In this document: in pieces, positions 1,663 through 52,315 of the stretch
Layout: each line of letters starts with the position of its first letter
Position numbering within the stretch: position 1 is the stretch's first letter
Assembly (NCBI RefSeq): GCF_019972295.1
Contig: NZ_BLJA01000001.1
Coordinates: forward strand, 838,049 to 902,048
Direction: 5' to 3'
Length of the DNA: 64,000 nt
Source of the DNA: Geobacter sp. AOG2
GTDB lineage: Bacteria > Desulfobacterota > Desulfuromonadia > Geobacterales > Pseudopelobacteraceae
Notes under the pieces: generated by a model
Databases searched by the model: none
The model's input: only the letters and a program-made list of their open reading frames with translations
What the model was told of the DNA's origin: nothing
Position numbers and translations under genes: made by a program

Positions 1663-1752
1663 TAGTTCATCGAACCGGCAAAACCAGGGTAACCTGGCGA
1701 CGCAAAGCTACCTGTCCAACCCAGATTGGATAGAGGGGCCGCCGAAATGACA
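1663..1752 (+). promoter_or_regulatory. GEMM-I (cyclic dinucleotide) riboswitch aptamer upstream of cheW
   Basis: The core GACGCAAAGCTACC matches the conserved J1/2-P3 segment of c-di-GMP-I aptamers. It is preceded by a CCAGG-GTAA-CCTGG stem capped by a GNRA tetraloop (P2) and followed by a P3 arm and a closing P1 (TCAT..CG at 1667-1672 with CG..ATGA at 1743-1750). The 5' conserved box reads CCGGCAAAACC instead of the common AGGGCAAACC, so this may be a variant subclass. Geobacter GEMM-I members include cGAMP-selective (GEMM-Ib) RNAs, so the ligand is left open. A terminator follows at once, which implies transcriptional control of cheW. Confidence 0.85.
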
Positions 1753-8403: not shown

Positions 8404-8988
8404 ATGGATAAAAAACATGTACAACCTGTCGGACGAAAACCGCGTGCCGACGCACAACAAAACCGCACGCGCATTCTGGAAGTGGCCAAGGAGGCGTTCA
8501 AGAAGTCGGGGGTCAATACCAGCCTCGACGACATTGCCAAACAGGCAGGTGTGGGACCGGGAACTCTCTATCGCCATTTTCCTTCGCGAGAGGAACTTTT
8601 AACCGCCGTATATCGGACCGAAGCGGAAAAACTCGCCGCTGCGGAGCAAAAATTTGCTGAAACCCTTTCCCCAGTCGAGGCATTGCGTGCCTGGATGTTG
8701 TTGTTTGTTGACTACATTGCCGCGAAGCAGATCATCGCGCCTGCTCTTAATGCACTGGTCGGAGATCCCAAGAAAATCTTTGAAGCTTCTTATTCCCAAA
8801 TATGGGAAGCTATCAGGGCCTTGGTCAGGCGCGCAATCGAGAGTGGGGATATACGGGAAGATTTGGATCCAATCGATTTGCTTCGCGCGCTTATTGGTGT
8901 CGCTAATATAGCAACAAGCCCAGATTGGCAACAAAGCGCCAGAAGATTGGTGGATATTCTCATTATGGGATCGCGGCCGGCCAAGTAG
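8404..8988 (+). CDS. TetR/AcrR family transcriptional regulator
   Basis: The 194-residue protein has an N-terminal TetR helix-turn-helix (RILEVAKEAFKKSG, TSLDDIAKQAGVGPGTLYRHFPSREELL, residues about 20-70) and an all-helical ligand-binding domain of ordinary length. It is divergent from the SDR/AKR operon, with two matching inverted repeats between them, so it most likely represses both that operon and itself until an unknown inducer binds. Base composition is AT-richer than the surroundings, as for the other genes of this cassette. Its stop is followed within 7 bases by a decayed pncA tail. Confidence 0.92.
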   Translation: MDKKHVQPVGRKPRADAQQNRTRILEVAKEAFKKSGVNTSLDDIAKQAGVGPGTLYRHFPSREELLTAVYRTEAEKLAAAEQKFAETLSPVEALRAWMLLFVDYIAAKQIIAPALNALVGDPKKIFEASYSQIWEAIRALVRRAIESGDIREDLDPIDLLRALIGVANIATSPDWQQSARRLVDILIMGSRPAK

Positions 8989-21604: not shown

Positions 21605-21684
21605 CCCTGAATCCGTGGCGCTTTCACGGTTCCCTGCGCTTGGCATGGCGCTTGATCCGCCATTCAGGCGTTGCGGATTCGGGT
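21605..21684. repeat. Palindromic repeat family A, short copy after cbiA
   Basis: The left arm CCCTGAATCCGTGGCGCT and the right arm GCGTTGCGGATTCGGG are imperfect inverted repeats, with the shared internal GATCCGCCATTCAGGCG. It lies between the cbiA stop and the B12 riboswitch. Confidence 0.7.
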
Positions 21685-21714
21685 TGTCTTTTGCCGTTCG
21701 CCATGCTACAAAAT

Positions 21715-21868
21715 GGAAGAAACTGCTTCCGGTTCAAGGGAAGCCGGTGCGAATCCGGCGCTGCCCCGCAACTGTGAGGGGGGACTGCCACCGCATAAGG
21801 CCACTGTCCGCAAAGGATGGGAAGGCGCGGTGACGGGACGATCCCCGAGTCAGGAGACCTGGCTGGAA
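21715..21868 (+). promoter_or_regulatory. Cobalamin riboswitch upstream of cbiM
   Basis: The stretch contains the conserved GAAgCCGGTGcgAATCCGGCGCTGCCCCGCAACTGT block, later GGAAGGCGCGG, and the closing GAGTCAGGAGACCTGGC (B12 box region), in the right order and spacing. It precedes cbiM by about 40 bases. No T-run terminator is seen, so control is probably at translation initiation through the GGGGAAGGGA ribosome site. Confidence 0.95.
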
Positions 21869-21907
21869 GCCACATAAACACTCCAACCGTGGGGAAGGGA
21901 GCGTATC

Positions 21908-41716: not shown

Positions 41717-41786
41717 TGCCGCCCCTTGGCCCTGGCCGGAGAAGATAAAGCTTGTTTTTTTATTCTGTTTCTAATATAGTAACAAT

Positions 41787-42206
41787 ATGTCGAACAACAC
41801 ACAATTCTCCATAGCGGTGCATATCATGACCGGGCTTGGCTACAAGGATGGTGCCGATATGACCTCCAGCAGTCTGGCGAAGAGCGTCAATACGTGCCCC
41901 AGTTTTGTTCGGCGGGTTCTTTCGAAATTGTCCAAGGCGGGGTTGGTTCATACGACGATCGGCAAGGCAGGCGCCTGTACGCTGGCAAAAAAGGCAAGCG
42001 AGATTTCACTGTTTGATATCTATGAGGCGGTGGATGCGCCGAAGGCCTTTGCAATCCACGGCTATGACGTTCAAAAACCGTGTCCCGTGAGCTGCAATAT
42101 CAAAACGGCCCTTGAAAGGGTGTTGGGAAAGACGCAGCTATCGGTTGAGGAGAGTTTGAAACGCATCACCCTTGAAGAGGTTATTTCAGACGTTAAGAAG
42201 GTGTGA
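41787..42206 (+). CDS. Rrf2 family transcriptional regulator
   Basis: The 139-residue protein has an Rrf2 winged helix (FSIAVHIMTGLGYKDGADMTSSSLAKSVNTCPSFVRRVLSKLSKAGLV) like YwnA rather than IscR. The three-cysteine [Fe-S] loop is not seen; only CPVSC is present near residue 99. The effector is therefore unknown. It is followed at once by a long structured leader and a very short ORF, which it could regulate. Confidence 0.88.
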   Translation: MSNNTQFSIAVHIMTGLGYKDGADMTSSSLAKSVNTCPSFVRRVLSKLSKAGLVHTTIGKAGACTLAKKASEISLFDIYEAVDAPKAFAIHGYDVQKPCPVSCNIKTALERVLGKTQLSVEESLKRITLEEVISDVKKV

Positions 42207-42239
42207 TTTTTTTTGCCATAAATTGTGATGTTAGAGGTA

Positions 42240-42390
42240 ACAATTTATGAAGATTCGCCAGGTTACAGGTTGCTGCTGTGAATCTTTCCCCGCCCGCCGA
42301 TGGCCGGGCGCAATGGTCGCGGGTGGGGGAACAAACTGGGAATCGGGCTTGCGGGCCTGATTCCCAATCCAAGAGAAAGGAGGAACAGCC
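42240..42390 (+). ncRNA. Structured RNA leader (candidate regulatory RNA)
   Basis: Between the Rrf2 gene and a tiny ORF lie two strong foldings. The larger pairs TTCCCCGCCCGC-like sequence (about 42286-42298) with GCGGGTGGGGGAA (42319-42331) and encloses a smaller CGCCCG stem. The second is TGGGAATC / GATTCCCA (42348-42365). AAAGGAGG follows. No known riboswitch consensus was recognised. It reads as a leader that shapes access to the ribosome site. Confidence 0.45.
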
Positions 42391-42453
42391 ATGTTTACCG
42401 AACGCTTCAGGATTCGTCCCGTATCCCATTGTAAAGAAGGTTGCATACGTTAG
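42391..42453 (+). CDS. Candidate 20-residue peptide with a CxxxC motif
   Basis: ATG at 42391 lies 7 bases after an excellent AAAGGAGG and opens a 20-codon ORF that begins MFTERFRIRP and ends with CKEGCIR before TAG. The peptide is basic with two cysteines separated by three residues. It ends at the base of a hairpin (42453-42475) and is followed by an independent terminator. The strong ribosome site and the terminator argue for translation, but I recognise no family. It could be a leader, a metal or haem binder, or a modified-peptide precursor. Confidence 0.4.
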   Translation: MFTERFRIRPVSHCKEGCIR

Positions 42454-42519
42454 CCTGCCGCTCCTGGCGGCAGGCGCATTCAGGGCCCCCTGCCGGCGAG
42501 ATCGGCAGGGGGCTTTTTT
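42453..42519 (+). terminator. Two stacked hairpins, the second a rho-independent terminator
   Basis: The first stem is GCCTGCCG / CGGCAGGC (42453-42460 and 42468-42475). The second is GCCCCCTGCCG / CGGCAGGGGGC (42485-42495 and 42503-42513) followed by six T. CTGCCG is shared by both stems, so the 5' arm of one can pair with the 3' arm of the other, a layout often used in attenuation. Confidence 0.8.
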
Positions 42520-42620
42520 GCAGGTACAGACAGGGGTTTCTGTCGAAAAGATTTTGGAGATAACGAAGGCGCATCAGGTCCGGGCTGTGCCGTTCCGGAG
42601 GACTGCCGGAGCCAGGGGCA

Positions 42621-51891: not shown

Positions 51892-51959
51892 AAAATACCG
51901 GGATGAAGATGTTATCCGGCTTCGGCCCCTCGTTCCACGGAGGTCCCAAAAGCATCGGA

Positions 51960-52110
51960 ATGGCAGGTTTCCTGGCTCGGGGATCGTTCCTTCGCCGCGC
52001 CTTCCCAGGTTTCCCCAGTGGCATGTTGCGGCGTCGGTCCCCCCTTACAGTTGCGGGACAGCGAGGGACTTGCACCCTCTTCCCTTTTAACCGCGCTGAT
52101 CGAGAGCGCG
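51960..52110 (-). promoter_or_regulatory. Cobalamin riboswitch upstream of cobU
   Basis: On the minus strand the stretch contains GGGTGCAAGTCCCTCGCTGTCCCGCAACTGTAAG-type core, GGGAAGGCGC, and the B12 box GAGCCAGGAAACCTGCC, in the usual order. With the downstream terminator it would switch off cobU-cobT and later genes when cobalamin is abundant. Confidence 0.95.
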
Positions 52111-52315
52111 GCACCAAACCGGTTGATAAACAGTTGCGCGTTTTGTACCAGACGCCAGGCCGATTGTCAAAACGGAAAGTGATGAAAATAATTGCCCTGA
52201 GCGGTTTGCTCTTGTATCTATAGGTATTCATTTGGTATTTAACCTGTGGTTGTTTGATATTCGCACGGTTTTCCGGCGGCATGACCGCCAGTTTGGAAAA
52301 TTTTTTTCACACCCC

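Follow-up and report, generated by a model that had tools for sequence, protein, structure and literature searches.

The 20-codon open reading frame that follows the rrf2 gene in our window (the whole stretch of 64,000 nucleotides from Geobacter sp. AOG2 that was analysed) appears to be a copy of an ancient and apparently unnamed micro-gene of distantly related bacteria, most of which are presumably anaerobes, judging by their genus names. We propose that it is a ribosome-pausing element, in which the thiols of the nascent peptide would sense soft-metal or redox stress. We hold this reading tentatively, with rather less than even confidence, and the same applies to it when taken together with the identification of the micro-gene. 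A chain that is conserved up to codon 18, an RNA roadblock 8 nt beyond it and a freely varying tail make a geometry suited to holding the ribosome on that codon. The two thiols, one of which is often His where it has changed, and metal and redox genes nearby suggest that such a hold would respond to soft metals or thiol stress.

An earlier note on this DNA had listed, behind the Rrf2 gene, two hairpins, a ribosome site, an ATG at 42391, a 20-codon reading frame, two further hairpins and six T. Direct reading of 42207-42620 reproduces all of these base for base (Table 1). The only gene beyond them is, as the note said, convergent, and the window copy has no same-strand gene downstream. By eye this convergent ORF contains repeated Ig-like segments and then YVTN-type repeats, and its end lies about 100 nt past the terminator. 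The RNA from 42225 to 42530 folds at -136.9 kcal/mol, compared to -113.0 +/- 5.7 kcal/mol for shuffled sequences (z -4.2, none of 100 as low). The pair of hairpins in front of the ribosome site fared differently in the four rrf2-linked loci, all from one genus: hairpin B is conserved, with two pairs changed on both sides, but hairpin A is only partly retained. The stem of hairpin 1 is kept in all four. An automated listing of promoters and terminators gave none on the plus strand at this locus. It overlooked the terminator at 42485-42519, probably because G-U and A-U pairs can extend the stem into the T-run.

Table 1. Parts of the element and its neighbours in the window; positions count from the first letter of the window.
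Feature	Position	Strand	Remarks
rrf2	41787-42206	+	Rrf2-family transcription regulator, 139 aa; PF02082 match
Palindrome GTTTCTAATATAGTAAC	41767-41783	+	Overlaps the rrf2 -10 region; candidate operator for the Rrf2 protein
Hairpin A, between rrf2 and micropeptide	42288-42329	+	From the fold; partial retention in 4 orthologous loci
Hairpin B, just 5' of the ribosome site	42337-42366	+	Kept in 4 rrf2-linked loci
Ribosome-binding site AAAGGAGG	42376-42383	+	From the sequence
Micropeptide ORF MFTERFRIRPVSHCKEGCIR	42391-42453	+	ATG 42391, 20 codons, TAG 42451-42453
Cys18 codon TGC	42442-42444	+	Last conserved codon; reference point for structure spacing
8-nt spacer ATACGTTA	42445-42452	+	Between the Cys18 codon and hairpin 1
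Hairpin 1, GCCTGCCG..CGGCAGGC	42453-42475	+	GC hairpin; begins 8 nt past the Cys18 codon
Intrinsic terminator, GCCCCCTGCCG..CGGCAGGGGGC	stem 42485-42513, six T 42514-42519	+	11-bp stem; from sequence and fold
Convergent ORF, 751 aa	42621-44876	-	Only gene beyond the element

Spread of the micropeptide family

A blastn search with 42207-42530 found matches in 27 of 57 related genomes, at 30 loci with varying surroundings. The peptide RPV[ST]HCKEGC is encoded in a short ORF at 21 of these loci and the TRCKEGC form at six; three loci lack the peptide. A profile built from 16 peptides (threshold E <= 0.1, reading through stops) matches 132 of the 141 genomes of the window's order, including 29 of 29 genera and 99 of 103 good genomes, with one to three copies per genome. 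With this spread, a reading of the element as specific to this locus is too narrow; many copies have their own promoter. A second copy in the window's genome, of the MWT type, lies on the minus strand (C1:3078157-3078216).

Members also occur in other classes and phyla, for example in Omnitrophota and Moorella. A divergent form is found elsewhere in the phylum (3 of the 12 matches outside the order, 395 genomes searched), and a wider profile placed 28 of its 36 matches outside the order (297 genomes of the phylum searched). Eight of the genomes listed belong to the window's class but not to its order, and none of them had a profile match. Of 22 genomes in the class to which one Moorella genome belongs, 14 had one. 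The pattern VAHCKEGC occurs at 118 or more loci in named genomes, when chance alone would give a handful (estimated from the information content of the pattern). We judged 117 of these loci by eye to belong to the family, as a short ORF and in most cases the following motif were present, and dropped one inside a long protein (L184). Since the pattern fixes its eight codons, these counts are lower bounds, biased to this type and silent on the conservation of those codons. Among the 80 matches listed with titles, 59 come from Omnitrophota; the others include Moorella, Desulfofundulus, Ammonifex and Peptococcaceae.

The family consensus approximates [FYW]x[LI]R[PA]V[AST][HR]C[KS][EG]G[CH], which closes the first 16 to 20 codons. 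Several copies from the Moorella class end in HCSGGH, HCREGH or HCEGGH instead of HCKEGC, and one ends in HCCGGK. Other Desulfobacterota have HCSEGC and in one case HCEEGS (the locating motif recovered the peptide in 16 of the 22 loci L228-L249). One genome of the window's family (G014) carries a third copy, L075, of the distant type: IAHCKEGC with the stop directly after it and the pseudoknot motif described below. A single genome of this family can thus contain hairpin and pseudoknot copies side by side.

The earlier note recognised no family, and the databases agree with it. NCBIfam gave no match for the peptide, nor did Pfam for the two family peptides that were scanned, and known structures gave none for the family. 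Rfam had no match above gathering threshold at the window copy. At one Moorella copy, a search up to E 5 gave nothing but two viral families, both scoring under threshold, and 18 other loci gave only tRNAs. The open-licence literature yielded no paper containing RIRPVSHCKEGC or HCKEGC, and the listings and excerpts consulted contain no description of the family. A mobile or viral origin was considered and rejected: one pattern had no match in viral contigs, and plasmids gave one meaningless match (E 7) and none with blastn. That a 20-codon, apparently unnamed gene sits in nearly all genomes of an order and in distant phyla means that near-universal micro-genes still escape annotation. Elsewhere in the window, at 21665-21880 (+), 51945-52133 (-) and 1667-1746 (+), there are two cobalamin riboswitches and one c-di-GMP-I riboswitch.

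Codon 18 as a boundary for peptide and RNA

For codon counts we used 101 distinct copies from the window's order, with exact duplicates removed. They are a chosen subset, made up of three batches of 20 stretches hand-picked for breadth and of loci found earlier. Three blastn matches without the peptide (L021, L026, L027) and three loci from other classes (L068-L070) were dropped, and L075 stands outside the set. The motif used to locate the peptide requires Cys14, Gly17 and Cys18 and limits positions 11, 12, 13 and 15. Both motif and profile favour conserved residues, hence amino-acid conservation is partly a product of how copies were selected; synonymous changes are unaffected. No profile-found locus of the order that was put into the set was lost to the motif.

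Codons 9 to 18 depart from the commonest codon by 237 synonymous and 59 nonsynonymous changes. At R9, P10, V11, C14, K15, E16 and G17 there are 209 synonymous changes and a single nonsynonymous one (positions 12, 13 and 18 excluded), while positions 12 (S/T) and 13 (H/R) account for 28 synonymous and 58 nonsynonymous changes. Codon 14 is TGC in 78 copies and TGT in 23. At codon 18 all 101 copies have TGC and none has TGT, although Cys itself is demanded by the locating motif. Beyond it, codons 19 and 20 change freely, the stop can be lost (TAG is kept in 71 of 101) and the tail ranges across the family from 0 to about 19 residues. Other groups share the same boundary: Moorella copies stop directly after Cys18, and the tails of many Omnitrophota copies read into the RNA structure. 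At the level of sequence, these comparisons establish that peptide-level selection ends at codon 18. A nascent chain conserved up to the stall codon is what one looks for in an arrest peptide, and here conservation stops at codon 18. The earlier suggestion of a translated micropeptide has become very probable, in view of the codon-level selection and of a ribosome site of at least 4 bases in 100 of the 101 copies (the start codon was picked by that score).

Metal ligands often swap Cys and His, and position 18 changes from Cys to His in several copies of the Moorella class. A strict metal site is nevertheless disfavoured, because 28 of 101 copies have Arg instead of His at position 13, and because L215 has Lys and L239 has Ser at position 18. 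The same variability bears on a classical cysteine attenuator, in which a shortage of charged tRNA-Cys would hold ribosomes at Cys codons. Actinobacterial Cys leaders exist, and the two Cys codons of our family do lie just upstream of a structure. The excerpted text of PMC8632094 describes a cysS leader that has tandem Cys codons. We nevertheless think such attenuation very improbable. Instead of a run of codons for one amino acid there are two separated Cys codons, R9, P10, V11, K15, E16 and G17 are equally well conserved, and position 18 can be His, Lys or Ser. We noticed no cysteine-biosynthesis gene or cysS among the neighbour clusters shown, and a same-strand downstream gene is present at 76 of 101 copies but not at the window copy.

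The boundary at codon 18 is also the point from which the RNA structure is spaced. A GC hairpin starts exactly 8 nt past the Cys18 codon in 85 of the 101 copies and at 7 nt in ten more, and it is followed by a terminator-like stem and T-run in 87 copies under a strict scan and in all 101 under a lax one. Outside the window's order the hairpin is mostly replaced by GTCCYGGGCANGACNNTAAACTGCCC, again 8 nt after codon 18; exceptions with a hairpin or terminator in its place are L096, L098, L113, L132, L135 and L142. In four of these (L096, L132, L135, L113) a terminator-like hairpin stands 7-8 nt past Cys18, much as it does in the order of the window.

We read GTCCYGGGCANGACNNTAAACTGCCC as an H-type pseudoknot with the helices GTC/GAC and GGGCA/TGCCC. 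Of 123 distinct sequences (taken from 152, after exclusion of duplicates and of those without AAA in the loop), 109 to 122 form its eight pairs. The first helix is GTC/GAC in 108 of them, CTC/GAG in nine, and GTG/CAC and GCC/GGC in one each. In 47 sequences, whose selection from the 123 to include unusual ones raises the covariation counts, 96.5% of cells are paired and six of the eight pairs have changed on both sides, as opposed to 29 to 44% pairing in slid controls; 0 of 500 shuffles did as well. The groups outside the window's order thus have two crossing helices with covariation.

The stop codon moves relative to these structures: it may lie two codons on, inside the hairpin, or directly after Cys18 (Moorella type), with the spacing of the structure constant. 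These comparisons establish that the structure keeps its distance from codon 18 and not from the stop codon. For this reason it seems to be placed for a ribosome at codon 18. The spacer opens with NNTA: in two groups, position 3 is T in 83% and 80% of copies, and position 4 is A in 88% and 85%. The window spacer, which starts with ATAC, departs from this consensus. Such agreement between two distant groups (about 80-88% of copies) points to a constraint at the nucleotide level. The earlier note had left open whether the locus makes a micropeptide or an RNA read by translation, and suggested looking in relatives for conserved codons and stems. Both alternatives turn out to be partly right: the ORF is conserved at the codon level, and together with it the structure at its fixed spacing.

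Two further roles for the structure can be weighed here. An 8-nt spacing in front of an H-type pseudoknot is the geometry of frameshift stimulators, and the structure could accordingly drive recoding, either a programmed frameshift or selenocysteine insertion. We find both most improbable and have rejected them. Codon 18 is TGC and not TGA in 101 of 101 copies (Cys is required by the locating motif, and no profile-found locus of the order was lost), and no slippery heptamer X XXY YYZ precedes the spacer, where the sequence reads GGN TGY and codon 15 is AAA, AAG, AGC or TCC (other frames were checked by eye only). The other role is a trp-type switch through the CTGCCG that the earlier note had seen in both downstream hairpins. 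The shared sequence is there, but it offers no sign of a switch. Among the 101 copies, pairing of the 3' arm of hairpin 1 with the 5' arm of the terminator gains nothing from the two being in cis, compared to arms from different loci (as low in 4131 of 5000 permutations). The arms can pair generically, at a mean of -10.2 kcal/mol.

Transcription units, gene neighbours and Rrf2

A sigma70-like promoter lies just upstream of 88 of the 101 copies of the order (12% of shuffles) and of 65 of 110 copies in the other group (17% of shuffles; the shuffles preserve base composition only). No such promoter precedes the four rrf2-linked copies and some others. The first downstream gene is on the same strand in 76 of the 101 copies and on the opposite strand in 25, the window copy among them (by simple ORF calls; 13 of these 25 neighbours fall into clusters seen elsewhere, and the rest were called mostly by ORF length). 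Because of these 25 copies a pure leader function cannot be general. The orphan copies imply that the peptide, the paused mRNA or both would also act without a downstream gene.

Gene clusters place a macA-like adaptor gene directly downstream, on the same strand, at 45 of the 101 copies (44 by motif), while the upstream gene differs; a DUF362 gene lies upstream in 35 of the 101. A macA promoter behind the element is mostly not recognisable (promoter-like sites between hairpin 1 and macA in 8 of 44 loci, compared to 5.5% in shuffles), and macA may for this reason depend on read-through of the element. One could therefore argue that the element is a leader-type transcription attenuator of a downstream gene (macA-like, copA or rrf2), and that orphans such as the window copy are relics or recently stranded copies. 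The macA-linked terminator stems are indeed weaker than orphan ones (-17.4 vs -21.1 kcal/mol, p 0.002), and in the loci of one genus a T-run lies about 26 nt before macA. However, the evidence for weakened terminators is mixed, as macA-linked T-runs are longer, not shorter (8.8 vs 5.6). With these T-runs and no cis-specific antiterminator pairing, no attenuation switch is visible, weaker stems notwithstanding. Moreover, orphan copies retain the peptide, and stops lie mostly well upstream of the terminator, so that a ribosome would rarely reach it. We consider this attenuation reading improbable.

The neighbours in the other groups point to redox and metal stress. Within 2.5 kb of the 117 VAHCKEGC loci among the matches listed, we counted Rrf2 at 53, a 2x[4Fe-4S] ferredoxin at 32, Hcp/prismane at 27, a CopA-type ATPase at 17, superoxide reductase at 12, flavodiiron protein at 8 and a Tpx-like protein at 5. 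A redox-stress family is present at 71 of these loci, a metal family at 21 and none of the counted families at 32; the loci are mutually related, and the counts are not independent. Neighbour names were partly assigned by eye, and rubrerythrin, ferritin, hemerythrin, HtrA-like and cardiolipin synthase-like proteins only so, from translations. A trypsin-like protease, also named by eye, lies downstream in 6 of 7 Moorella-class loci with HCSGGH-type or similar ends (L204, L213, L215-L219). Some of the HCSEGC-type copies (L228-L249) adjoin hemerythrin-like, PDZ-protein or CopZ/HMA-like genes by the same kind of inspection.

In Omnitrophota the element often heads rrf2-ferredoxin-hcp operons. The palindrome ATGATAC-N7-GTATCAT (at most two mismatches) lies in the promoter spacer of 39 of 44 loci with rrf2 directly downstream, as against 4 of 68 others and 3 of 2240 shuffles. 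Copies of this type have rrf2 in the transcript and the palindrome in the promoter, as an autoregulated operon would, and the palindrome is likely to be the Rrf2 operator. In Omnitrophota loci such as L077, L094 and L163, which have rrf2-headed operons, the promoter spacer carries a strong palindrome, AATGATAC-N7-GTATCATT.

In the window the gene order is reversed, with rrf2 first and the micropeptide second, and the promoter palindrome differs from that of Omnitrophota. A palindrome with 0-1 differences from GTTACTAATATAGTAAC precedes rrf2 in 4 of 4 loci of one genus (L001-L004). In the whole genome, the site in the rrf2 promoter is the only match to GTTACTAATATAGTAAC at one mismatch. Three others have three mismatches, fewer than the eight matches of a reversed-pattern control, and we rejected them as further Rrf2 targets; one of them, at window position 8899, lies inside a TetR-like coding sequence and was taken as chance. 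The simplest inference is one auto-repressed transcript, in which the micropeptide would be the only other cistron. Stress regulators of the Rrf2 family include NsrR, IscR, CymR and HypR. Like them, the window protein belongs to PF02082 (E 1.3e-29; 103.5 bits, where the cut-off is 30) and has a palindrome in its own promoter. In contrast, it stays below all NCBIfam cut-offs, those of the listed equivalogs included (64.4 vs 73.3 bits for the Rrf2 superfamily model). The earlier note had named the Rrf2 protein as the likely partner. The association does recur across phyla, but most copies in the window's order adjoin genes other than rrf2, and we know of no micropeptide that is a partner of an Rrf2 protein.

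Promoters, orphans and the Rrf2 link also fit a close rival of the pausing sensor, which we regard as nearly as likely. The element could be an autonomous small gene, whose released peptide of 18-25 aa would act in trans by binding either a soft metal or a cluster, or else a partner protein (e.g., Rrf2). The hairpin or pseudoknot would then merely slow the ribosome or protect a short mRNA. Autonomy would account for promoters at 88 of 101 copies, for terminator-like ends at 87, for opposite-strand neighbours and for the near-universal presence in the order. The Cys/His swap at position 18, the four rrf2-linked copies without a promoter and the fact that the only rrf2-type palindrome in the genome with fewer than three mismatches precedes the rrf2-micropeptide pair are also consistent with it. 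Leader peptides can moreover act in trans, as excerpts on peTrpL indicate (PMC7298713). What speaks against this rival is that a released peptide does not need conservation to stop exactly at codon 18, that the tail is free, and that the structure is spaced from codon 18 and not from the stop.

Proposed pausing at codon 18 and known systems

Under the pausing reading, a good ribosome site would start translation of the short ORF, and a hairpin or H-type pseudoknot would await the ribosome 8 nt past codon 18. With codon 18 in the decoding centre, the ribosome would meet this roadblock at its mRNA entry and pause, the conserved nascent chain lining the upper exit tunnel. Cys14 and Cys/His18 would let a soft metal, or thiol-reactive redox or NO stress, set the pause; Cu(I) is our favoured guess for the ligand. 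The output would depend on context. Upstream of a macA-like efflux adaptor, a CopA-type ATPase or Rrf2-ferredoxin-Hcp, the paused or released ribosome would gate the mRNA. In the window, where the element is the last cistron of a probably auto-repressed rrf2 transcript, the pause would set mRNA stability or the amount of peptide.

Some findings count against this reading. Positions 12 and 13 carry 58 nonsynonymous changes, the neighbour families are not independent, 32 of the 117 listed loci are without any counted family, and the eight same-class genomes outside the order have no match. We think it rather unlikely that the most complete version holds in every part: an ancient cross-phylum sensor in which an 18-residue, two-thiol chain and a pseudoknot or hairpin brake, 8 nt apart, would let the ribosome detect soft-metal or redox/NO stress, and in which copies would either head stress operons or form separate transcripts, with Rrf2 controlling some of them. 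If the pausing reading is true, the element would be a very short sensor, in which nascent chain and covarying RNA structure act together at fixed geometry. Translation would then connect Rrf2 regulation with metal efflux and with the defence of anaerobes against oxidative and nitrosative stress. The small size of the element puts full testing in vitro within reach.

Arrest peptides of the TnaC/SecM type are short and have conserved residues that run up to the stall codon. Our family likewise has an aromatic residue 12 positions before its last conserved residue, in the manner of W12 and P24 in TnaC. It differs in showing no visible sequence similarity to these peptides, in that its conserved element includes an RNA structure just downstream, and in that some copies have no same-strand gene to regulate. 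The closest worked example we found of metal sensing by a nascent chain is CruR (DUF2946), a copper-responsive uORF of Bordetella. The excerpted text of PMC9426467 describes a protein of 145 residues for which export is predicted; its CXXC and RAPP motifs lie 45 residues apart, and termination is Rho-dependent. As far as these excerpts go, the likeness lies in a two-Cys nascent peptide proposed to sense a soft metal, in a position at the head of copper-homeostasis operons and in a conserved C-terminal motif of the arrest type. CruR nevertheless differs in size, motifs and output: our family has 16-20 conserved residues, a terminal HCxxG[CH] and no RAPP, and its RNA structure keeps a constant distance of 8 nt.

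Conserved short peptides combined with conserved RNA structures also appear in a motif study by Brewer et al. In the excerpts consulted, the odc1 uORF motif comes from alpha-proteobacteria, and uORFC-8-2, in which Cys codons precede a terminator, is given only upstream of cysS in Rhodobacterales (PMC8632094). Our family, in contrast, is one peptide common to several phyla and many contexts. The leader peptide peTrpL of Sinorhizobium is reportedly a different peptide from ours. According to the excerpted text it has a function in trans (PMC7298713), and a function of this kind would fit the orphan copies.
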